Virus record (IMG/VR): IMGVR_UViG_3300044632_001498
Coordinates: 1-39,835 of that record
Strand: one strand, 5' to 3'
Length of the DNA: 39,835 bases
From: a virus
Below are positions 3,337 to 39,835 of the stretch, piece after piece; positions within the stretch are counted from its first letter, which is position 1, and each line of letters begins with the position of its first letter. The notes under the pieces are model-generated. The model saw nothing but the letters and a program-made list of their open reading frames with translations. It was not told the origin of the DNA and did not search any database. Both the position numbers and the translations under genes were made by a program.

Positions 3337-3629
3337 GCGCAACTGACGAGCAGATCGAAGCCGCCGTCAAAGCGGGACGTTCCACAAGGTGGATTGTCGA
3401 AGAGCTCAAAGTCGGCGTCCCACGAGTGAACCGCGTTCGCGCAGGCGCCCATGCGAAACCGCCAAGCAACATGTCGACGGTGGAGTACTTGACGAAGCGC
3501 CTGATCGCTGCCGAGTCCGAGGCGCGCGAATGCAGGTCACAGCTTGCGGCGATGCACAACGTGATCGAACGAAACCAGCAACTTCTGGCGATTCTCGACG
3601 AGATCGCAGACAAGGCCAAACGCAAATGA
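3333..3629 (+). CDS. Mini-HTH protein with coiled-coil tail (98 aa)
   Basis: ATGA overlap; AGGAGG lies just before the start. N-terminal residues 6-38 repeat the HTH-like pattern of this operon (AAVKAGRSTRWIVEELKVGV, then PRVNRVRAGA). Residues 48-95 are a Leu/Glu/Arg-rich helix, probably a coiled coil for dimerisation. A small dimeric DNA-binding protein is the simplest reading. Confidence 0.65.
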   Translation: MSATDEQIEAAVKAGRSTRWIVEELKVGVPRVNRVRAGAHAKPPSNMSTVEYLTKRLIAAESEARECRSQLAAMHNVIERNQQLLAILDEIADKAKRK

Positions 3630-4186
3630 CCATCCTCAACGACAAGCAGATCATAAACCTCGACAGCGACCCGTTCCCGATGATTGAGCCGTTCGAGCCA
3701 CGACAGGTGCGCGCCATCAACGGCGAGCCAGTCATCAGCTACGGGCTGTCGTCGTTCGGCTACGATGCGCGGTTGGCATGGGAGTTCAAGGAGCCCGTTG
3801 GTGGCGTGATTGACCCGAAGCAACCCGAACTCGCAACGTGGCGCTCGTGGGAGCAAGACGGCCGCGTCGTCATGCCCCCACACAGCTTTTACCTCGCAAG
3901 AACGATCGAGTACTTCAAGATTCCCGACGACGTATTCGGCGAGTGCCTTGGCAAGTCAACGTTTGCGCGAGGAGCAATCATCGTCAACGTCACCCCGCTG
4001 GAGCCGGGATGGGAAGGACACGTCACGCTGGAGTTGTCGAACACAGCAGACGTCCCGAGCGTCGTGTACGTGGGCGAGGGCATCTGTCAGTTCGTGTTTT
4101 TTCGTGGTGAGCGTCCTGCTGTCAGCTACGGCGACCGCAATGGCAAGTACATGAAGCAGGTCGGCGTGACGCTGGCGAGGGTGTGA
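3626..4186 (+). CDS. dcd: dCTP deaminase (186 aa)
   Basis: Converts dCTP to dUTP and ammonia in the cytoplasm; a member of the trimeric dCTP deaminase/dUTPase fold. Visible marks are ISYGLSSFGYDARL (37-50), the GKSTFAR loop (109-115), PGWEGHVTLELSN (127-139) with the catalytic Glu at 136, and a Gln-containing strand GICQFVFF. Length is normal for the family. ATG at 3626 overlaps the upstream stop. It is followed directly by a DNA methyltransferase, and no thymidylate synthase is in the window. Whether it is a pure deaminase or also hydrolyses dUTP cannot be decided from the motifs. Confidence 0.9.
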   Translation: MTILNDKQIINLDSDPFPMIEPFEPRQVRAINGEPVISYGLSSFGYDARLAWEFKEPVGGVIDPKQPELATWRSWEQDGRVVMPPHSFYLARTIEYFKIPDDVFGECLGKSTFARGAIIVNVTPLEPGWEGHVTLELSNTADVPSVVYVGEGICQFVFFRGERPAVSYGDRNGKYMKQVGVTLARV

Positions 4187-6383: not shown

Positions 6384-8135
6384 TCACTGTTGCACCCCGA
6401 GAATCGAGGCAATTTCTTCTTCCGACATCCCGCGCGAACGCAGGTCTGCGGCAAGACGTTGATCTTCAGAGCTCAACTCAAGCGGGATAGTCGCTGGTGT
6501 GTTGGCCGCAGCAGCCCCCATGGTTGCCTCGCCAAGCGCGCCAGCGGCCTGTGCACCGCCGCCGCTGAACATGGTTGGCGAGTATGCGGCGAGGCGCTGT
6601 GCAAGCTCACGCGATGCTTCAGCGGCTGTTGCACGGGTGCTGGCGGCAATGGGTGCCATCGTCTTCGCAGCGCCAGCCATCAGCAGCCCCTTCAGTCCGC
6701 CGCCTGCCGCGTCAACCAGCCCAACATCGCGCAAGCTGAACATGTTGTTCGTGCCTTGTCGGCCCAGCGCCACATCGCCAGCATCTTTGGATATGCGCGC
6801 TACTTGGTTCAGAGTCTTGGCCCCTTGGTATGCGGCAGGGTCAAGCCCAATGTCGGCCAGAGACTTTTTGATTGCCTCTTCGACGGCTGCACGACCCTTC
6901 ATCGCAGCGTCCGCTGGCGCTGTTGGGTTGCCACCAATGGTCGCGGCCTTGTAGCCCTGTGCGGCGTCCTTTCCCAGCTCAACCGCGAGGTCTTTCGCCT
7001 CACGCGGCGCTGCAGCGAGCGTGTCCTTGATGACCCCATCGTCAAACAGTGCACCGGGTTTGGCGTTCGCCTCAATGCGTGCCGCCAGCGCCAACAACGC
7101 CTCAGCCTCGCCTTCTGCTGACTTGCCGGCACCCTTGAGGCCAGCAGCACGCTCAGCGGCGGCAGCTCGAAGGCGAGCCACGATGGCGCCGACGTCGGTT
7201 TGCGCCCCGCGCTCGGTGGCGTCGTCGAGAATCTTGCCAATCGCTGCGCCTGATTCCTCGAGTGCTGCCGCAGAACGGTTGTTGATGCCCTGTGCAGTGT
7301 TGATGAACCTCGAGATGCCAGATTTGCGCATCATGTCGGCGGCGCCAGCCACACCGCCGGGGACGAGTGCGGCCTCCTGCAGAATACGCGGCCGAGACAG
7401 CGCGCCGCCAGTGCCAGCAGCCGGCGTCAACAGTCGCAACTCATCCGCCCGCTGGCCCGCCGCCTCAAGGGGCTTGCGCAACAGGTTTGCCGTCCCTTTG
7501 GCAAGGCTGCCAGCGGCTTGACCGAGTGCGGGGGCGGCGGCACCGGCAACAGTGCCAAACGCTGTCCCCTTGGCGACTTCCCACGGGACATCTGCGGCGG
7601 TTTTCGCCTCGCCGACGCCAGCAACGGCACCGCTGCCTGCGCCAATGGCTGCACTCGTCTTGGCCAACTGAAGCGCCGTTGCGCCTTCTTTGGCCTTGCC
7701 AAGCGCACCAAGTGGCACCAGCAACCCGCCCGCCACTTGCCCCACGCCGGTCTTGAATGGTTCAGCTTGTCGGGACTCGGCGAGTCGTGCGCGCTCTTCG
7801 TCGCGTGCGGTCTGGTATGCCTCGGGGTCACGTGGGCGGTCATCGCGGAACGCCTGGTATGCGTCACCCGCCGCACCGGCAACGCCAGCGAGCTCGTCGG
7901 CAAACGAGAAGGTCAGTCCCTGTTTGACACCGGTGGCAACGCTGCCCTCGCCGAGCGCATCAAGAAACCGCTCACCCGGCTTTGGTCGTGCCGCAATGCG
8001 CTTCTTTTGCGCCTCGGTGCGCATGGCGTCGGCTTCTTCTTCGGTGATGGCTGGTGCCTCATCGGCAGCAGCAAACGCGGCCGCCACTTCTTCAGGGGCA
8101 GCTTCCACCTTGGTGGCCTTATCTTTCCAGCCCAT
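6384..8135 (-). CDS. Ala-rich internal virion (ejection-type) protein (583 aa)
   Basis: Large, Ala/Gly/Lys-rich protein with long amphipathic helices and small-residue hydrophobic stretches (residues about 130-220). Such composition is usual for podoviral internal or ejection proteins that form a conduit through the cell envelope. No lytic transglycosylase motif was recognised. The N-terminus is acidic; the C-terminus (SEEEIASILG) resembles a short helix hairpin. It is the longest protein in the virion operon and sits with two other Ala-rich proteins. The role is inferred from composition and location. Confidence 0.6.
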   Translation of the reverse strand: MGWKDKATKVEAAPEEVAAAFAAADEAPAITEEEADAMRTEAQKKRIAARPKPGERFLDALGEGSVATGVKQGLTFSFADELAGVAGAAGDAYQAFRDDRPRDPEAYQTARDEERARLAESRQAEPFKTGVGQVAGGLLVPLGALGKAKEGATALQLAKTSAAIGAGSGAVAGVGEAKTAADVPWEVAKGTAFGTVAGAAAPALGQAAGSLAKGTANLLRKPLEAAGQRADELRLLTPAAGTGGALSRPRILQEAALVPGGVAGAADMMRKSGISRFINTAQGINNRSAAALEESGAAIGKILDDATERGAQTDVGAIVARLRAAAAERAAGLKGAGKSAEGEAEALLALAARIEANAKPGALFDDGVIKDTLAAAPREAKDLAVELGKDAAQGYKAATIGGNPTAPADAAMKGRAAVEEAIKKSLADIGLDPAAYQGAKTLNQVARISKDAGDVALGRQGTNNMFSLRDVGLVDAAGGGLKGLLMAGAAKTMAPIAASTRATAAEASRELAQRLAAYSPTMFSGGGAQAAGALGEATMGAAAANTPATIPLELSSEDQRLAADLRSRGMSEEEIASILGVQQ

Positions 8136-9301
8136 CAGCGCACCACCTTGTAGCCATCGGCGAGAGCATCGCCGAGGTCTGCTTTGTCGATCTCGAGGAT
8201 TTCTTGCCCGTTGCTCACGCGCACTTTCGCGGATGCGGCGGGGGCAGCAGCAGATGCAGCGGGAGCGGCAGCACGAGGAGCGCCGACGACGTCAACAGGG
8301 TCAAGCCCTGACTTTGTCGCCAAATCGCTGTAGCGCTGGATTTCAGCGTTGGCACGCGCCACAGCTTGGTCACGCAAGCCTTGCGCCTGTGCCAAGAAGT
8401 CCGCGCGCTGTGCGGTGGACAGACGCTCGCCGGACAGTGTCCGGTTCCACGCATTGCGCACGCGATCATCAACACCAGCCGCGTTTTGCGCGTTGGCAAA
8501 CTCGGTTTCTTTGACCACCGAGCCGGGGTCAAGAATCTTCATGAACGTGAAGATCAAAGCGAGGTCGCCCGCCGCAGACGGGTCTTTGCTGGCGTTCGTC
8601 ATCGTGTCGAAGTTGGCCGACGAATCCGCCGCCGCCTTCACCGAGGGCAACGCGTTGAACTCTTTCCGCAGCGGGGTTGCCGCCACGGTCTGGTTCTTCG
8701 GCGCTTTCGGCGCCGGCAAACGCGCCTTCTTCTTCGCGTCAGCCTCACGCTGGGCGCCCAATGCTTCGGTGGCGTCGGTCTTTGCGGCCTCAGCACCAGC
8801 CTTGGCGCGCTCTTCGGCCATGATGCCCGCAACGGCAGTGTCGTCGAGGTTGCCAAGCTCAGGATCGGCAACGGCGCGGCCGATGAGCGTTTCGACGTTG
8901 GCCGACGGGTCACGAGCAGCAGCCCGCAGGACCTCCATCGACGACTTTTCGCGCAACACCTTGCTGTCGCGCTCTGCCTTGTCGGCTTCTGCTTTGCGCT
9001 TGGCTTCTGCCTCGTCGACATCGGCTTTTGCGCGCATCATCGAAGCGTCATTCGCGCCTTGTGCGCGAAGCAACGACGCTTCGGCGCCCTTGTCGCGCGA
9101 AGACATGAGGCTTTCGCGCTCGGCAGTCTTTGCCGTGCGGTCCGCATCCTCCTGCTCACGCTTGCGCTTCTTCTCGTCGATGCCCTCGACGTAGTCGCCA
9201 GCGTCACCGACGGCGCCAATCAAGTTGGCCAACGCGCGGGCGTTCTCCGACTGAAACTTGCTCGATTGCGCACGTCGGCGCTCAGCTTGCCATGCGGTCA
9301 C
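8135..9301 (-). CDS. Helical virion protein of podovirus type (388 aa, GTG start)
   Basis: GTG at 9301 follows GAGGTG. The N-terminal 130 residues are a highly charged coiled coil. A conserved core lies around residues 240-310, with ALIFTFMKILDPGSVVKE and VRNAWNRTLSGERLS. I recognise this core from internal or structural proteins of short-tailed phages (family memory, not a search). The C-terminus has an Ala/Pro linker and a small terminal domain (SNGQEILEIDKADLGDALAD). Probably an internal/ejection protein paired with the 583-aa product. Confidence 0.65.
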   Translation of the reverse strand: MTAWQAERRRAQSSKFQSENARALANLIGAVGDAGDYVEGIDEKKRKREQEDADRTAKTAERESLMSSRDKGAEASLLRAQGANDASMMRAKADVDEAEAKRKAEADKAERDSKVLREKSSMEVLRAAARDPSANVETLIGRAVADPELGNLDDTAVAGIMAEERAKAGAEAAKTDATEALGAQREADAKKKARLPAPKAPKNQTVAATPLRKEFNALPSVKAAADSSANFDTMTNASKDPSAAGDLALIFTFMKILDPGSVVKETEFANAQNAAGVDDRVRNAWNRTLSGERLSTAQRADFLAQAQGLRDQAVARANAEIQRYSDLATKSGLDPVDVVGAPRAAAPAASAAAPAASAKVRVSNGQEILEIDKADLGDALADGYKVVR

Positions 9302-26966: not shown

Positions 26967-28496
26967 CTACCAGTCAGCCGTTCCAGTGTCCCGACTCAAC
27001 ATCGCCTCGACATCCACTTGACCTTGCCGGCGTCGCGGGGCGGGCGGTTCCCATGGGGATTGACGCAAACGAATCAGGCCAAACCCGATGGCCATCATGA
27101 GGTCTTTCCGGCCTTTCCAGTTGCCGCGTTCGTCCTTGCACAAGTCGTCAGCTTCTTCGGCGAGTTCCTTTGGCCCAAACAACGTCCCGTCGACGCAGCC
27201 GGTGCGAACCAGCGTGAGCCCGTCGACCTTGCTCGCCTCGGTGGTGGGGAAGTCGATGGTCGACACGCCCAGTCGACGAAGCTCGAGTACCATCGCTTCG
27301 CCGATCCCGTTGTTCTCGACGACAACCTCAGGCGCAGACGGTGGCTCGAGCTGCACGCCCCAGCCAACACCCTTGGTCGGCGGTGGGTCGGTGTAACGGG
27401 CGACGAGGTCACGCACGACGCGCGCAAACGAGTGCACATCCATCGTGTTCGACACGAACACTGCACAGATGCGATGGCTGCGTTTGTCGAGCACCACGCA
27501 CGCTGTGCGGTCCTTCTCCACGCCCTTGCCGGTGTCGACGGAGACGACGACGCTTCCACACGTCTCGTCGCGTGGAATCCACACAGGCACACGTTGGCCG
27601 TCGCAGAGGTAGAACGTCTGCGGGGTGGTCACCTTTGGTTCGACGGGCACCCATCGCGAGGCACCAGCGGTGAACATGTGCGCGGGAATCTGCGGGTACT
27701 CACGCATGAGGCGCGAGACGTCGCCAGCGACGAAGTCGGGCAGGCCAACGGCAAGCCACCAGGCTGCAGACTCACGAATCGTGAACCCCTGCTCTTGCGC
27801 CCACATCCACTGATCCTCGCTGATTGCGTTCGCAGGTGCGCGGTACTCGTGCCCGTGGTCCTCGACGCTGAAGAACAACTTCCTGTAGCGGTTCTGCTGC
27901 CGCCACAGATCTCGAGCAAGCAGGCCGTTCGGTGCGTCGACGTCAAGCGTCGTCTCAATCACGATCTGTCCGTCGAGGGACAGCGACGGAATGAGCGCCC
28001 CATAGGTGCTGGGGTTGGCCCAGAACGGGAGTTCTGACAGGTGAAGGCGCTGGTAGCTACCGGATCGGCCCTCGCTCTTGCCGCTGCCCGTACCAAACAC
28101 AAGTACGCTGCCCTTCGGGAACACCACGCGCTCGCTGTTGATGTCGATGTCACCGAAGATGTCAACAAGCGACGGGGCGGATTTCACCGAGCGGGCAAAC
28201 GCCTCACGTTCTTTGCTCTTCGCCTCGGTGTCGACGTACAGCCCACAACGCACGCGGTTACCCGCAGCGTCGTTGATGGCGCACCACAACATGTCATCGA
28301 ACTGGGTGACTGTCGTCGCACCAACCTGCCGAGGCTTGGCAGCAAACGTCCACGCACCGGTGGAGATGGTGCGCAGCATCTGATGTTGCTCGGTGTTCAG
28401 CCGCCAGGGAGTGCTTGCGCCGGTCCTGTGGTCGGTGATCGAGATGGTCTCAGCCAGCGCCTGCGTCACATGGGCTGGCGCCCACAGCAGGCTCAC
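26967..28496 (-). CDS. terL: Terminase large subunit (509 aa, GTG start)
   Basis: ATP-driven motor and nuclease that packages DNA into the prohead through the portal. The Walker A variant KPRQVGATT lies at about residues 54-62 and the Walker B/catalytic Glu in HLSELPFW near 152-159. RNase H-like nuclease acidic residues are Asp321 in VSVDTGKG, Glu394 in VVENNGIGEA and an Asp in RKDLMMAIGFG near 468. GTGA overlap with the small subunit. Length is normal. No intein or insertion is visible. Confidence 0.92.
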   Translation of the reverse strand: MSLLWAPAHVTQALAETISITDHRTGASTPWRLNTEQHQMLRTISTGAWTFAAKPRQVGATTVTQFDDMLWCAINDAAGNRVRCGLYVDTEAKSKEREAFARSVKSAPSLVDIFGDIDINSERVVFPKGSVLVFGTGSGKSEGRSGSYQRLHLSELPFWANPSTYGALIPSLSLDGQIVIETTLDVDAPNGLLARDLWRQQNRYRKLFFSVEDHGHEYRAPANAISEDQWMWAQEQGFTIRESAAWWLAVGLPDFVAGDVSRLMREYPQIPAHMFTAGASRWVPVEPKVTTPQTFYLCDGQRVPVWIPRDETCGSVVVSVDTGKGVEKDRTACVVLDKRSHRICAVFVSNTMDVHSFARVVRDLVARYTDPPPTKGVGWGVQLEPPSAPEVVVENNGIGEAMVLELRRLGVSTIDFPTTEASKVDGLTLVRTGCVDGTLFGPKELAEEADDLCKDERGNWKGRKDLMMAIGFGLIRLRQSPWEPPAPRRRQGQVDVEAMLSRDTGTADW

Positions 28497-28816
28497 GGTT
28501 CAGACCGAGGCTTCGCAAGCGCCAAGATGGCTTCAAGTGCCTCGCTGCCGGTTGTCTCCACGTTGACGTTGGCGTCGGGTTTGCCCCACACGCGCTCAAC
28601 AACAACCTCAGCGGCGCGAAGGCGGTACTTGGTTTCAACGCCCCTCTCGACGCCCGTCGCCACGTTGACGATGTACTGTAGCGCCTCAGGGCCTGCAGCC
28701 TTGAGCCAGTCAGGGTATGCGGGCTTGCCACGGGGGTTGAGCGATTGGCCGGGCAACGGGCGACCTTTCTCGTCGCGCTTCACCACCAACGCCGTCGGTG
28801 TGTCTGGGTTCGTCAT
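28493..28816 (-). CDS. terS: Small terminase-like protein (107 aa)
   Basis: Contains LPGQSLNPRGKP (residues 21-32), the GQSGNPAGRP-like arm seen in phage small terminase or DUF5681-type proteins. YRLRAAEVVVERVWGKPD near 63-80 is the other familiar motif of the group. Stands directly upstream of terL with a 4-nt overlap. It should recognise viral DNA for packaging. No ribosome site is visible before the ATG at 28816, and the promoter -10 box ends only 6 nt upstream, so translation may be leaderless. Confidence 0.8.
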   Translation of the reverse strand: MTNPDTPTALVVKRDEKGRPLPGQSLNPRGKPAYPDWLKAAGPEALQYIVNVATGVERGVETKYRLRAAEVVVERVWGKPDANVNVETTGSEALEAILALAKPRSEP

Positions 28817-31502: not shown

Positions 31503-31745
31503 TCAGGTGGACGCCGCGTCAGAGCGGGCGATGATCTCGGCGATGGACAGCTGCTCGAGACCAGAGGCAGCCAAAGCCGCCACAACAATGGCGGGCGCCA
31601 TCTGCTGAACACGGCCACAAGGGCGCTCAACACGAGCCATGCCCGCAGCAGTGAAGCCAAGGACGACACACACGCCGTCATCAGACTCCCAAGCGCGGCC
31701 AATCAAGCTGGCGTCAGTGGTGTAGGCGGTCTGGGTGGTCAGCAT
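31503..31745 (-). CDS. First gene behind leftward promoter C (80 aa)
   Basis: ATG at 31745 is chosen because GGAG stands about 9 nt upstream, in the same leader sequence (TGAATGGAGCGA) that precedes the first genes behind promoters A and B. The protein has a beta-rich first half (GRAWESDDGVCVVLGFTAAG) and a helical second half (IVVAALAASGLEQLSIAEII). No family recognised. Confidence 0.65.
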   Translation of the reverse strand: MLTTQTAYTTDASLIGRAWESDDGVCVVLGFTAAGMARVERPCGRVQQMAPAIVVAALAASGLEQLSIAEIIARSDAAST

Positions 31746-31789: not shown

Positions 31790-31817
31790 ATCCTACGCAA
31801 GTTGCGTGAGTTGTCAA
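31790..31817 (-). promoter_or_regulatory. Sigma-70-like early promoter C, leftward
   Basis: On the minus strand TTGACA (31817-31812) and TAGGAT (31795-31790) are 16 bp apart, with CATGC before the -35 and ACTTGCG before the -10, as in promoters A and B. It drives the accessory unit starting at 31745. Confidence 0.83.
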
Positions 31818-31832
31818 GCATGAGAGTTGCGA

Positions 31833-31922
31833 AGGTGTGAGGTTTGTCACACCTACATGTAGGCTACTGTAGGTCTCTATATATAGAGAAATCTATCAAT
31901 AAAGACTTCTTATTATAAGAAG
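31833..31922. repeat. Cluster of four palindromes in AT-rich DNA
   Basis: An 8-bp inverted repeat with 6-nt loop lies at 31833-31854, a perfect 12-bp palindrome at 31852-31863 and a perfect 16-bp palindrome at 31874-31889. A 7-bp inverted repeat with 3-nt loop lies at 31906-31922. CCTAC/GTAGG occurs repeatedly. These could be binding sites for dimeric proteins or melted hairpins. Confidence 0.85.
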
Positions 31923-31945
31923 GCTTCCCAATGCGGAAAACGTCA

Positions 31946-31970
31946 AAACCCCGCCTTGTCGGCAGGGTTT
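31946..31970 (-). terminator. Leftward terminator of the helicase-primase unit
   Basis: On the minus strand AAACCCTGCC and GGCGGGGTTT form a 10-bp stem with one G-U pair and a GACAA loop, followed by T, then GACGTTTT. On the plus strand the same position would be an A-C mismatch, so the structure favours leftward transcripts. It lies 110 nt past the prim-pol stop. Confidence 0.75.
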
Positions 31971-31976
31971 CGGGGG

Positions 31977-32056
31977 GGGTTCTTTCCTTCCTTCCCGTGG
32001 GAAAGAACCCTATCGGCTGCTGTCGGTCGGTCCGTTTGGCGCGGGAAGGAAGGAAA
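31977..32056. repeat. Overlapping inverted repeats beside the prim-pol stop
   Basis: GGGTTCTTTCC (31977-31987) pairs perfectly with GGAAAGAACCC (32000-32010). In competition, TTTCCTTCCTTCCC (31983-31996) pairs perfectly with GGGAAGGAAGGAAA (32043-32056). The two hairpins share an arm and cannot form at once. A run of eight G precedes them (31972-31979). Confidence 0.85.
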
Positions 32057-32079
32057 TAACGGTGGCAAAACGACGCAGG

Positions 32080-34344
32080 CTACTCCTTTAGCTTGTAGGT
32101 GTCAGATGGTCTGCCGCCTGCTTTGCCTTGGAGCACCTTAGTTTGGTCCAATCGGCCTTCGTCTGCAAGTCGTATCAGTGCCTCGGTGATTTGCTGCGTT
32201 GTGAGGCGTCGGCAAGCTCGGAGGATCTGTGTCCTGGTGGCCTCCCCACCGTGTGAACGCAGCGCGCTCACCACGAGGTCGACTTGTGCAGCGGGGTCAT
32301 CCCACGAGGCGCGGCGGTTGCCAGCGAGCGACTCGGCAAACGTCACAGCGGATTCCTCGACAAGCGCAATCGCCACCTTGACAATCTCAAGCGTGACGGT
32401 GGGGATTTCCTCTTCTGGTTGCGAGAGGGTGGCGAGCACCAACGCAACGCGAGCGGCGAACTCTGGCAATCTCCCCAAAGTGGCGCGCGGGATCTCCAGT
32501 CGCTTGTTGTCGCGGCGTTCTTCGTCGCACTGCATTTTGTGCTCAAGCAACTTTGCTGCGGCTTCTGGCGTCTCGTTGACCGTCAATGGAGCGTAGAGCC
32601 TGAGCGCGTCGAGCTCCCCACCCTCGCTCTTGCGACTCGGTGACCCCATGTGCCACTCGCTGTGGCGAACGTGGATCGCCTCAAGGGCCCCACGCACATC
32701 GTGCGGTAGGCCATCGTCCCCGCGCGTCTCTGGCGGCTGCCAGATGGGCAGCCGGTCTTGTGAGCGGAACCAGAGATGACGGCCAACGAAACCATCGGCG
32801 ACGTCGGTTGAGGTGAGCACGCTGTGCAAAGACTCTGGCGTCGTCGACCCCAGCAACGTGACGCAAGGGGCCCAGAGCTCGAGCTTGCCCCCACCTTTCA
32901 CTAGCGACAGCGCCGGGCTCCACTTATCGACCCCCTTGGTCGACAGCTCCGTCAGGCTTTGCTTGAGGTCTTGTCGATGGGTCGCCGCTCGTGGGCCAAT
33001 CATGGCGGCGAGCTGCATCCCATATTCGTCGAGCACGAGACACGTTCCGTTGCCACCATCGGTGGCCTTGCGGATCGTATCAATGAACGCTGGCCCAGAG
33101 CTGAAGCTGTTTGGCCCTTGCAAGTCTGACCACACCTCGTCGATGCAGCGCCCCAGGCACGATTGCGGGCGGTTTTTTCCCTCGGCGCTGCCAGCCAACG
33201 AGACGAGGTAGAGCGATGACAGCCCGCGACGGTAGACAAGCCGACGACCGGCGACGACGGACCCAAGCGCAAGCAGAGACGCGATCGTGAGCGCGGGTTG
33301 CGGATGGTCCGCCCCACGAATCACCCAGGCGCAATAGCTGTCACAGAGCCCCCCGAGGGCACGCACGCTATTGAGCAGCCCCCACCGTGTCTCGTCGCTG
33401 CTTTTCGATTGCGGCGCTCGTGGTGGTGGCAGTGGCGACAAGACCTCCGGTTCGTCGTCAAACTGAACAACGATGTCCGCCCCACCAAAGTGGTCAGGCT
33501 TGAATGCCACGAGCTCGGTACGTGGTGAGCGCGGGTGCTTCATGCCAGCATTCAGGCCGCTGCGAATGGTGCGCGCAGCTTCACGATCTTGCAGCCCGCA
33601 AGCCCTCGCTGCGTGCATCAACTCAACCTCGACGTCGCCCGCCGACAGGTGCCCACCAGCAACGATCTGCCCGAGCGAAAACGCGGCTTGATTCAGCCGG
33701 TGATTGCGCCCGCCCTCGCCTTGCTCGGCCACTGCGCGCGTCTCACCGTCGAGTGCTTTGCTGGCCCACGAGGTGGACTGCATCGCGTACGTCGCACGCG
33801 GCAGCAGTGCGACGGGTTTCGGTGTGAGCTCTTCAACAATCCACGAGGGCAGCTCGACGGGGTCAACGTGGTTGACCCACTCATAGCGTCCCGTCCCCGT
33901 CGCCCCCTTGTCTTTGTCGATGTCGACGATCGACGGGTAGACGAGCACGTACCCGCCTTCCCCACGCGTGTCGCAATCTTTGTGGATCTTCGCCGCCTTG
34001 CTTGAGTTTGGCAGCGACGTCACCCCTTCCGGGTAGCGGTAGACGTAGTGCCACCCGCCCGAACGGGTGCGCGCAATCCACGTCGTCGGAAGTCTCGGCA
34101 TGACATCGCTGCTTTGCGCGTCGACGTCGACAACGTGAAGGCCAGATTTTGACCCGGTGGCAATCGCTACGTTCGCTTCAGGGTTTGACCGCCACCAGGC
34201 GTTGATCTGTTCGACGTCCGTGGTTGCGTCATGAGAACCAGCCGACCCGCCGAACGGGAACTTCGAGCGGCGCGAGCAAGGGAACACCGCGTAGCCCATC
34301 GAGGCGTACCAGAGAGCAGCTTCGAGCATTGTCATCGTTTTCAT
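32080..34344 (-). CDS. Prim-pol domain fused to a DUF3987-like ATPase (754 aa)
   Basis: The N-terminal 170 residues match the bifunctional primase/polymerase (archaeo-eukaryotic primase) domain: VVDVDAQ with metal ligands Asp73 and Asp75, SGGWH (95-99), and RGEGGYVLVYPS (127-138). A primase C-terminal-like linker follows. An ATPase-like domain then carries a degenerate Walker A (GSAEGKN, 385-391, with Asn for Ser/Thr) and Walker B CLVLDE (435-440). Prim-pol makes primers and can extend DNA. GAGG precedes the ATG. Downstream of the helicase gene by 9 nt, it is probably the replication initiator or primase. Confidence 0.82.
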   Translation of the reverse strand: MKTMTMLEAALWYASMGYAVFPCSRRSKFPFGGSAGSHDATTDVEQINAWWRSNPEANVAIATGSKSGLHVVDVDAQSSDVMPRLPTTWIARTRSGGWHYVYRYPEGVTSLPNSSKAAKIHKDCDTRGEGGYVLVYPSIVDIDKDKGATGTGRYEWVNHVDPVELPSWIVEELTPKPVALLPRATYAMQSTSWASKALDGETRAVAEQGEGGRNHRLNQAAFSLGQIVAGGHLSAGDVEVELMHAARACGLQDREAARTIRSGLNAGMKHPRSPRTELVAFKPDHFGGADIVVQFDDEPEVLSPLPPPRAPQSKSSDETRWGLLNSVRALGGLCDSYCAWVIRGADHPQPALTIASLLALGSVVAGRRLVYRRGLSSLYLVSLAGSAEGKNRPQSCLGRCIDEVWSDLQGPNSFSSGPAFIDTIRKATDGGNGTCLVLDEYGMQLAAMIGPRAATHRQDLKQSLTELSTKGVDKWSPALSLVKGGGKLELWAPCVTLLGSTTPESLHSVLTSTDVADGFVGRHLWFRSQDRLPIWQPPETRGDDGLPHDVRGALEAIHVRHSEWHMGSPSRKSEGGELDALRLYAPLTVNETPEAAAKLLEHKMQCDEERRDNKRLEIPRATLGRLPEFAARVALVLATLSQPEEEIPTVTLEIVKVAIALVEESAVTFAESLAGNRRASWDDPAAQVDLVVSALRSHGGEATRTQILRACRRLTTQQITEALIRLADEGRLDQTKVLQGKAGGRPSDTYKLKE

Positions 34345-34353
34345 TTGGTCACC

Positions 34354-36204
34354 TCAAAAGGGCAATGTGTCGTCGTCAGACCAGACGGCGAGGCTGCCGG
34401 CTGGGTGCTCTTTCTGGTCTTTGCGGATGCACGCCCCACATGTCGGGCAGTGGTGCTTGTCTTCTCCGCTTGAGATGTCAGGCGTGAACCCGAGTTCAGC
34501 GATTCGCTGTGCGCAGCAGTCTTCATCTTCTCCCGGTTCGCGCGGCCGCTCTTGCAGCACCTTGACCACCTCGCGGTACTTCGGATTTGTCGGCGATGGC
34601 TTGGTCACGATCTCGACGACTTTGGCCATGTAGCCCATGTCAAGCAGTTCAATCGCGTCGTCGACAGAGATGGGAACACGACACCCGACATTGTCACGCC
34701 ACCACCTCACCGCCCCGCGATAGGCGCCGCTGTCTTCTGGGTGAGAGAAGCATTTCCACTCGCTGGCGATGCGTCGGTCAAACGACGTGGCCGACTCACC
34801 AGCGGGGGCATAGTACTCAATCCGCAGCGTAGGAGGCGCACCAGGCGAGTCTTTCTTGCTGTGCCGATGCCACTCCACCCGACCAACTTTCTCGCGTCGT
34901 GGTGGTTCCTGCTGTGCCATGAACGACAGCGCAGCTTTCTCGCTGGCCTTCTCTTCCAACTTCGATTTCGGCTCTGGTGGCGGGAACTCTTTCCCGCAGT
35001 GTGGGCACACGCGACACCCGGCGAGGCATTGCGCAAGGCATCCCTCGCACGTCTTCACGGGCGCCTCGCCGGTCCCTCGCTTCGGCTTCACACGCACTTC
35101 GTCGATCGGCCCGTGTCGGTCGATGTTCCCGCCGTAGTCGAGCAGCAGCGCGTTCGTCTTGCCCTCGGCAATGCGCGTCCCGCGTCCCACCATCTGCACA
35201 TAGAGCGCAGGCGAGAGCGTGGCACGCACAAGAGCGACAACGTCGACGACAGGCGCATCAAACCCCGTCGTCAACACCTCGCAAGAGCAGATGCATTGCA
35301 GCTTGCGCGCTTTGAACTTCGTGTAGATGGCGTCGCGTGTCTCTTGAGGGGTGTCGCCCTTCACCACCTCGCAACTCACACCACGAATCTGCAGCTCATT
35401 GCGCAAGCGCGCGGCGTGCTCAAGGTTCGCCGCGAACACGATCGCAGACGTGCGGCCAGCGTCGATCGCAGTGCGAACATCGTTCGCCACAGCCTCGTTG
35501 ATTTCATCGGTGTCGCTCACTGCCCCGAGCTCTTTCAGGTTGAACTCGCCGGCAGTCTTGCTCACCTTGCTGGTGTCGATCTTCGCCGACACAAACTGTG
35601 TGACGACGGGAGCGAGGTAGCCCGCTTCAATCAGCCGACGGATCGGCACGTCGATAGCAATCGCGGTAAACACTGCGCCCTCACCTTGCGTGAGGTACCC
35701 CTGCCCCAGCCGAAACGGGGTGGCGGTGTACCCGATCAAACGCATGTCGGGGTTCACCTTGCGCAGCGCCTCAATCAGCTTGCCATAGTGCTCTGACGAT
35801 GTCGGCGGGATCAAATGCGCTTCGTCAATCACCATGACGTCGATGTGCCCCAGCTTGCGCGCTTGGCGAGAGATCGACTGCACACCCGCGACGGTGATTT
35901 GCGCGATCTCCTTTCGCCCCAGGGATGCGCTGTAGATGCCGATGGGAGCGTCGAGCCACACGCTGCGAATCGCCTTGACGTCTTGCTTAATCAGCTCGGC
36001 GCGATGGGTCGCCACGAGCACACGACAACCCATCTCTTGCACCAGCCGTCGCACTGTCTCGCCGATTGTGGGGCTCTTGCCGCTGCCAGTGGGCATGACC
36101 ACGAGCGGAGACGCGGGACACTCTGGCGTCGACGGTGCGCGCTCCCAGTAGGAAAACACGGCGTCGACGGCCTCTTGCTGGTAGTCGCGGAGCGAGATTT
36201 TCAT
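34354..36204 (-). CDS. SF2 DEAD/DEAH-box helicase with zinc cysteines (616 aa)
   Basis: Motor motifs are clear: I MPTGSGKS (37-44), II DEAH (127-130), III TATP (160-163) and VI QMVGRGTR (337-344). Unwinding DNA at the origin or in recombination is likely. A cysteine cluster CEGC...C...CRVCPHC (386-403) and a second near 586-592 (CPTCGAC) suggest zinc knuckles. ATG 36204 has AAAGGA at good distance; an upstream frame to 36270 lies in the intergenic region and is rejected. Adjacent to prim-pol, so both probably form a helicase-primase pair. Confidence 0.87.
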   Translation of the reverse strand: MKISLRDYQQEAVDAVFSYWERAPSTPECPASPLVVMPTGSGKSPTIGETVRRLVQEMGCRVLVATHRAELIKQDVKAIRSVWLDAPIGIYSASLGRKEIAQITVAGVQSISRQARKLGHIDVMVIDEAHLIPPTSSEHYGKLIEALRKVNPDMRLIGYTATPFRLGQGYLTQGEGAVFTAIAIDVPIRRLIEAGYLAPVVTQFVSAKIDTSKVSKTAGEFNLKELGAVSDTDEINEAVANDVRTAIDAGRTSAIVFAANLEHAARLRNELQIRGVSCEVVKGDTPQETRDAIYTKFKARKLQCICSCEVLTTGFDAPVVDVVALVRATLSPALYVQMVGRGTRIAEGKTNALLLDYGGNIDRHGPIDEVRVKPKRGTGEAPVKTCEGCLAQCLAGCRVCPHCGKEFPPPEPKSKLEEKASEKAALSFMAQQEPPRREKVGRVEWHRHSKKDSPGAPPTLRIEYYAPAGESATSFDRRIASEWKCFSHPEDSGAYRGAVRWWRDNVGCRVPISVDDAIELLDMGYMAKVVEIVTKPSPTNPKYREVVKVLQERPREPGEDEDCCAQRIAELGFTPDISSGEDKHHCPTCGACIRKDQKEHPAGSLAVWSDDDTLPF

Positions 36205-36281
36205 GCTTGACGTTCCTTTGTGCTTGCGCTTAGTTTCTCCACACGGTAGAGAAACGAACACGAAACGCAAGGGAGAAACGA
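36205..36281. promoter_or_regulatory. Divergent regulatory region between helicase and Sak4-like genes
   Basis: GTTTCTC (36233-36239) and GAGAAAC (36249-36255) form an inverted repeat around a 9-bp spacer, and a third GAGAAAC (36273-36279) lies next to the rightward ATG. TTGACG at 36207-36212, preceded by CATGC, resembles the -35 of the other promoters, but the -10 is weak (CTTAGT at 16 bp or TAGTTT at 18 bp). Leftward, TTGCGT and TACCGT are 16 bp apart. Promoter boxes are tentative; the triple heptamer is solid. Confidence 0.5.
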
Positions 36282-38898: not shown

Positions 38899-38951
38899 CG
38901 TCGCATCACAACGCGCCCACAAACTTTTTCACGAAAACAGCAGGTGCATGC

Positions 38952-38979
38952 TTGACATCTCGCGTGACTTGCGTAGGAT
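38952..38979 (+). promoter_or_regulatory. Sigma-70-like early promoter B
   Basis: TTGACA 38952-38957 and TAGGAT 38974-38979 are 16 bp apart, with the same flanks as promoter A. It follows the terminator at 38875-38898. Confidence 0.85.
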
Positions 38980-39022
38980 GTCCCTACGAGCTGCACGCCG
39001 CAGCGAGTGAATGGAGCGACCA

Positions 39023-39184
39023 ATGATCGACATCAGCAAACCCATCGCCGCAACACGCGAGAGTCTGGCCCTCACACGCGCCACGTTGGCCCGTATCGAC
39101 GGGATGTGGAAGGCGCGCACCAGCACCGGCCGCGTTGTCCGCAGCGTCTCACGCGCCGTTGTGTTGAGCGAGGTGGAGAAGTGA
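39023..39184 (+). CDS. Small conserved early protein, copy B (53 aa)
   Basis: Same leader and start as the gene at 491-652; the proteins differ at 3 of 53 positions (Arg/Lys, Ala/Ser, Thr/Glu). Basic, no recognised domain. GTGA-type overlap with the next gene. Confidence 0.8.
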   Translation: MIDISKPIAATRESLALTRATLARIDGMWKARTSTGRVVRSVSRAVVLSEVEK

Positions 39185-39339
39185 CCCACCCACGCGAGAC
39201 AGAAGACGAGCGCCCCGACTACCCCACCGACGACGAATGGCGCGCCATGCAGGAGCCGATCGACGACATGTGGGTCTGCAGCGACGAGGAAGCGTGCGCG
39301 CGGCTGGCAGAGATCTTTTTCGGAGGAGAGAGCAAATGA
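39181..39339 (+). CDS. Small acidic early protein, copy B (52 aa, GTG start)
   Basis: GTG at 39181 overlaps the preceding stop. The C-terminal CARLAEIFFGGESK matches copy A, while the N-terminal half (MTHPRETEDERPDYPTDDEW) is unrelated to it. The shared tail, retained while the rest diverged, suggests the tail is the functional contact. No family recognised. Confidence 0.7.
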   Translation: MTHPRETEDERPDYPTDDEWRAMQEPIDDMWVCSDEEACARLAEIFFGGESK

Positions 39340-39602
39340 GCAAGCACACACCGGGGCCGTGGATAATTGGAGCCATGGAGAGCGGGCTTGCCGCTGTTGA
39401 TGGCGCCAACGGCGAGGAAGTCACGGGATTCATCTCGCCAGCAGACGCCGCACTCATCGCTGCCGCGCCTGACATGCTGGCTGCGCTGGAGGCGGTTGAG
39501 GCGTACTTGAGCCGCAGGGTTGGACACGTTCCGTCGTCCATGGGTTACGACGTTCTTTCGCAAGTGCGCGCGCTCATCGCACGCGCCAGAGGCACCCCAT
39601 GA
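39336..39602 (+). CDS. HTPGPW-type phage protein, copy B (88 aa)
   Basis: ATGA overlap. Has the canonical HTPGPW motif at residues 4-9 and DAALIAAAPDMLAALEAVE near 50-68, both typical of this phage early-protein group of unknown function. Shorter than copy A (105 aa) and diverged outside the motifs. Confidence 0.78.
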   Translation: MSKHTPGPWIIGAMESGLAAVDGANGEEVTGFISPADAALIAAAPDMLAALEAVEAYLSRRVGHVPSSMGYDVLSQVRALIARARGTP

Positions 39603-39835
39603 CCGACCCACGCCACGTCCACAGCGACGCCACCATTCTCGCCGCCCTCCGCGCTGGCGAGAAGCCACGCGACGTCCAGCGCAGGTTGGGCTGCACGTGG
39701 GCACGGGTCAAGGCGCTGGCGATTGCGCACGGGCTGTACGCGTCACGCACCTCGACACTGCGCAGGAGCTACATCAACAAGGGCAGGCGCTACGTTGGCA
39801 ACACCCGCGTACCCGATGACTGGCACGTCGTGGCG
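39599..39835 (+). CDS. Mini-HTH protein, copy B (79 aa seen, cut by right edge)
   Basis: ATGA overlap. The HTH part (residues 1-47) matches copy A at 1133-1411 except for two substitutions. The following segment is diverged (ASRTSTLRRSYINKG, where A has PPRTRRSYMING) but re-joins at DWHVV. About 13 residues by comparison with copy A are missing past the edge. Confidence 0.75.
   Translation, partial: MTDPRHVHSDATILAALRAGEKPRDVQRRLGCTWARVKALAIAHGLYASRTSTLRRSYINKGRRYVGNTRVPDDWHVVA

Follow-up and report, generated by a model that had tools for sequence, protein, structure and literature searches.

The window analysed here is the complete 39,835-bp IMG/VR virus record IMGVR_UViG_3300044632_001498 (positions 1 to 39,835), and the region of interest is the gap that follows its PrimPol gene. 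An SF2 helicase gene and the PrimPol-DUF3987 gene, whose product is the putative initiator, form a leftward operon, and the helicase gene precedes PrimPol in most relatives with sufficient flanking sequence. Past the gap a second leftward operon carries small genes, a TerS-like gene (28493-28816, more than 3 kb from the gap) and TerL. About 20 bp separate the PrimPol stop, which ends at 32080, from a large inverted repeat, and the original prediction was right that the gap adjoins the prim-pol gene and sits between two transcription units. The features are as follows, L003 being the closest usable relative (L003/L062, with a PrimPol 78% identical to that of the window).

34354..36270, minus strand: SF2 helicase gene, member of the PrimPol operon (Pfam ResIII and Helicase_C; phrog_16)
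32080..34344, minus strand: PrimPol-DUF3987 gene, putative initiator (Pfam Prim-Pol 2e-36, DUF3987 1.4e-9)
31979..32060, no strand: large inverted repeat or stem-loop with 19-nt pyrimidine/purine arms and a 44-nt loop (0/100 shuffles)
31947..31969, minus strand: terminator-like hairpin of the PrimPol operon, AACCCTGCC-gacaa-GGCGGGGTT and then TT on the minus strand
31833..31925, no strand: AT-rich palindromic block, candidate unwinding element and candidate binding sites (AT maximum, palindrome score, identity to L003)
31906..31922, no strand: palindrome CTTCTTATTATAAGAAG, that is CTTCTTAT(1)ATAAGAAG, retained in L003, where one pair differs by a compensatory change
31874..31889, no strand: perfect 16-mer palindrome TCTCTATATATAGAGA, kept in L003 as TCTCTATTTATAGAGA
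31852..31873, minus strand: CCTACA repeats 10 bp apart (CCTACAgtagCCTACA) together with palindrome CCTACATGTAGG; the direct repeat is retained in L003
31852-31863: palindrome CCTACATGTAGG, lost in L003
31833..31854, no strand: palindrome AGGTGTGA(6)TCACACCT, of whose arms L003 retains the inner 6 bp
31790..31817, minus strand: promoter TTGACA-16-TAGGAT for the downstream operon; an inverted repeat, ACGCAAcTTGCGT, lies inside it
31503..31745, minus strand: first of the small genes in the leftward late operon (start set by alignment to L003)

Anatomy of the gap behind the PrimPol gene

Along the direction of leftward transcription the gap reads inverted repeat (32060-31979), hairpin (31969-31947), AT block (31925-31833) and promoter (31817-31790). 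Much of this had been predicted from the letters of the sequence and is borne out by the analysis: the four palindromes lie where they had been placed, each as a single-copy sequence in the window, and the large inverted repeat is real, its arms (32042-32060 pairing with 31979-31997) being matched in none of 100 shuffles. The predicted leftward terminator stands as far as a reading of the sequence goes, which yields the hairpin at 31947-31969, but it is absent from the list of the automatic scan. Overlooked in the original prediction was a strong leftward promoter, at 31817-31790, that lies after the palindromes and before the next gene; two sisters of its class are found on the plus strand, at 420 and at 38952. 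The three (420-447 and 38952-38979 on the plus strand, 31790-31817 on the minus strand) are near-identical TTGACA-16-TAGGAT elements with a TTGCGT motif in the spacer and likely form a common regulon. The two plus-strand copies belong to near-duplicate segments at the record ends (369-1284 and 38902-39750, in pieces 86-92% identical), each of which carries the same promoter class and a gene start. The right half of the window had zero megablast matches among GenBank phages.

The unusual AT-richness claimed for the region is also confirmed, as no 90-mer of the window is richer in AT than 31843-31932 (67%, versus 56% for the next best). The palindrome score of the 95-bp block is 24, against a mean of 1.7 for dinucleotide shuffles, none of 500 of which reach 24; across the genome, none of 1987 sliding windows of 95 bp attains this score, the runner-up scoring 22. 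The 16-mer TCTCTATATATAGAGA is the sole 8-0-8 palindrome in the window, where no second copy was found within 3 mismatches. The gap of the window holds no iteron array, its best 8-mer occurring twice, which is equalled in 165 of 200 shuffles.

Conservation among PrimPol relatives

Relatives of the PrimPol are encoded at 46 viral loci, at about 33-98% identity, and a second profile search added further, more distant loci; in bacterial genomes and prophages no relative was found with the PrimPol alignment. One of the viral loci, L078 (G004:C1:13733-15961), has a single TAG stop inside the PrimPol frame, which may reflect a real mutation, recoding or sequencing error. Nearly all relatives have a pyrimidine/purine inverted repeat or another stem behind PrimPol, followed by an AT-rich block. 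Of 10 long genomes, eight have their AT-richest 80-bp window 71 to 158 bp past the PrimPol stop, and in the remaining two the corresponding site ranks 3-4; four of the ten contigs have exact end repeats and are therefore probably complete.

Comparison with L003/L062 separates the parts of the gap. Identity between the window and L003/L062 is 93% over terminator, promoter and leader, and the AT block with its palindromes is 78-79% identical in L003, where the adjoining coding ends reach 61% and 56%. The stem-loop is only 40% identical, and no long stem is retained in L003/L062. Persistence of the palindromes in close relatives, which the original prediction had named as a check, holds in part in this closest one: the L003 counterparts of 31906-31922 and 31874-31889 are largely kept, 32.5 versus 33.5 bp apart from centre to centre, while palindrome 31833-31854 is shortened and CCTACATGTAGG is degenerate. 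The CCTACA repeat is kept at its 10-bp phase.

Further afield, pyrimidine/purine stems comparable to that of the window are present in many relatives, and stems cannot be aligned across clades. In many relatives taken singly neither the palindromes nor the stem is significant versus chance; combined over 38 non-redundant blocks the palindromes give p 2e-8, a value to be read with the phylogenetic non-independence of these samples in mind.

Three distant relatives (L099, L148 and L149), whose genes likewise encode Prim-Pol plus DUF3987 proteins, carry iterons at this locus. In L099, CAAGTGTCC units in both orientations flank an 87% AT stretch behind PrimPol, and in L148 and L149, whose PrimPols are only about 25% identical, CGTCAGCA and ACGGGGCA iterons, respectively, flank an AT-rich stretch just behind the gene. 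Each of these iteron sets was matched by 0 of 200 shuffles and by 0 of about 30 other windows of its own locus. By their sequence these loci are apparent textbook-type iteron replication origins, the candidate in L099 spanning 3353-3678. A phased 10-bp tandem repeat, CGTGAGCAAT, lies past the AT block in L096, L102 and L099 (3734-3770) and is common to these distant relatives.

Replication origin or transcription control

Besides the iterons of the distant relatives, two results separate an origin from a promoter at this site. The locus L061 provides one, as its promoter and leader are 97% identical to those of the window (60/62 nt) and its replication gene differs, being 28% identical to that of the window and nearer another clade. 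L061 has no window-like AT block, the 100 bp upstream of its promoter being 26% identical in an ungapped comparison. Because a near-identical promoter next to another replication gene comes without the block, the block tracks the PrimPol gene and not the promoter. The sister promoters at 420 and 38952 also lack an AT palindromic block. The gap of L061 instead holds the palindrome CACTTGATATTTGTCAAGTG and then GAGGGTAGG, like the L094 clade, and a RecD/Dda-like helicase gene (7623-8771) lies between its replication gene and the gap.

These observations bear most directly on the strongest alternative, that the region serves transcription control only, with the PrimPol operon ending in a terminator, then operator palindromes and the late-operon promoter. 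An operon boundary could indeed acquire AT-rich DNA, hairpins and palindromes for reasons other than replication. The hairpin at 31947-31969 and the strong promoter at 31817-31790 fit such a control region, palindromes are typical of operators, and many relatives have TTGAC promoters downstream of the block. However, the promoters of this class at 420 and 38952 and the near-identical one of L061 do without the block; in relatives such as L009, L012 and L016 extra promoters and a terminator or small gene intervene between the block and the best promoter; and the iterons and AT-rich DNA of L099, L148 and L149 are left unexplained. We consider control of transcription alone unlikely.

Less probable by a wide step is that the helicase-PrimPol mRNA carries a structured RNA at its 3′ end, acting as a stability or attenuation element. 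Strong stems occur in many relatives and the stem-loops lie inside the transcribed 3′ region, but a search against Rfam returned zero families above threshold and sub-threshold chance matches only, the AT block of the window lies beyond the terminator, and the iteron-bearing relatives do not fit. A packaging site (pac or cos-like) is the most improbable of all, for although TerS and TerL are encoded downstream in the next operon, L099 has a TerS-like ORF and inverted repeats are known at such sites, the TerS-like gene of the window is more than 3 kb away, the element goes with the PrimPol gene, and iterons and AT-rich DNA are not packaging features. Even jointly, an RNA element or a packaging site would be a long shot.

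A turn in GC skew at the gap, which the original prediction had tied to an origin there, did not appear: in most of ten genomes the cumulative minimum falls about 4-7 kb upstream of it, in a test confounded by gene orientation, and skew gives no support for a bidirectional origin at the gap. Among annotated GenBank phages with a PrimPol we found no consistent gap downstream of the gene; in Pseudoalteromonas phages H40/1 and C7 a long AT-rich gap lies on the other, upstream side of PrimPol, and S. thermophilus phage SWK6 has a 253-bp AT-rich gap behind its primase. Weighing the skew test against the anatomy of the gap, the conserved position and AT maximum, the linkage to PrimPol, the iterons that three relatives carry there and the precedent of pRN1, we conclude that the gap at 31833-32060 is probably a pRN1-like, initiator-linked replication origin of the phage, as the sequence comparisons and the analogy suggest.

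A putative PrimPol initiator and known systems

The protein itself points to the same precedent. ORF904 of pRN1 is the best PDB sequence match to the PrimPol profile (hmmsearch, E 5e-4), and Foldseek with the PrimPol model, whose confidence is moderate overall (mean pLDDT 69.5, pTM 0.47), retrieves the pRN1 primase-polymerase (3m1m, E 5e-7) and also NrS-1. For the middle of the protein, where model confidence is low, there are weak matches to MCM hexamers (E 7e-4), and Pfam assigns DUF3987. The AlphaFold model predicts a winged helix at 684-752 (H-E-H-H-E-E, pLDDT about 65-83) with many winged-helix matches in Foldseek, each weak alone. The putative architecture, as modelled, is that of pRN1 ORF904: an AEP primase-polymerase, an AAA+/MCM-like middle and a C-terminal winged helix. 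In several lineages small stand-alone genes past the AT block copy this C-terminal winged helix, which would fit a regulator sharing the DNA target of the initiator. Stand-alone winged-helix genes of this kind lie about 80-210 bp behind PrimPol in L072, L068, L063, L128, L130, L094 and L136.

In an origin of this type PrimPol, which the original prediction listed with the helicase and a dimeric regulator as candidate ligands of the palindromes, would bind just behind its own gene, at the AT block with its palindromes and also at the nearby stem-loop in phages that have one. By analogy to pRN1 it may assemble or oligomerise at the AT block, melt the AT-rich stretch and prime DNA synthesis at the melted site, with the SF2 helicase encoded next to it assisting initiation. 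The terminator would shield the site from transcription of the PrimPol operon, and the late-operon promoter would start just beyond. Extending this to the group, we tentatively propose, at somewhat less than even odds, that the origin always lies directly behind the PrimPol gene, that its architecture changed repeatedly (stem-loop, AT palindrome pair, iteron array) along with the winged helix, and that in some lineages the stand-alone winged helix competes with the initiator and sets copy number or timing.

To our knowledge the origins of phages replicated by a PrimPol are mostly unmapped. If our reading is true, the rule to look directly behind the PrimPol-DUF3987 gene would yield candidate origins in dozens of uncultivated phages, connect phage iteron origins with the stem-loop origin known from an archaeal plasmid, and offer substrates for PrimPols such as that of S-2L, which did not prime on generic templates (PMC8065100). 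The principle of an origin behind the replication gene dates from 2014, when it was proposed for replication proteins like that of pRN1, those of phages included. Added here is a phage case that is both broad and conserved: its architecture is AT-rich and palindromic, iteron forms occur at this locus in relatives, and stand-alone winged-helix genes can lie next to it.

Among known systems pRN1 is the closest in layout. Deletion and relocation experiments established that replication requires, in cis, a 100-nt stem-loop located behind orf904, that this element can be moved, and that the terminator beside it is dispensable (Berkner et al. 2014, PMC4234260); the same authors proposed this origin arrangement for Bordetella phage BIP-1. 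The two systems share an initiator with an AEP primase-polymerase, a C-terminal winged helix (predicted in the phage protein) and perhaps a hexameric-type helicase, and a terminator hairpin and large stem-loop directly behind its gene. Unlike pRN1, the window has an AT-rich palindromic block beyond the stem-loop, its protein is annotated as DUF3987 rather than the SF3 helicase of pRN1, and the phage encodes a separate SF2 helicase; the stem-loop, moreover, is missing in the closest relative and iterons occur in distant ones. The iteron origins of P4, plasmids and lambda resemble L099, L148 and L149 in having repeats and an AT-rich unwinding stretch beside the initiator gene, whereas the window has palindromes and two or three CCTACA units. 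For the NrS-1 PrimPol, also a phage PrimPol with a helicase-like C-terminal region, an 8-nt template recognition sequence is described and mid-genome sites are proposed as origin (PMC7102993); this motif is described for the NrS-1 and not for the window PrimPol, and the description of the NrS-1 sites mentions no AT-rich block of palindromes. Finally, cyanophage S-2L, compared by description only, likewise has its PrimPol and SF2 helicase side by side; the available part of the report describes no origin and proposes this PrimPol as the sole polymerase of the phage (PMC8065100).
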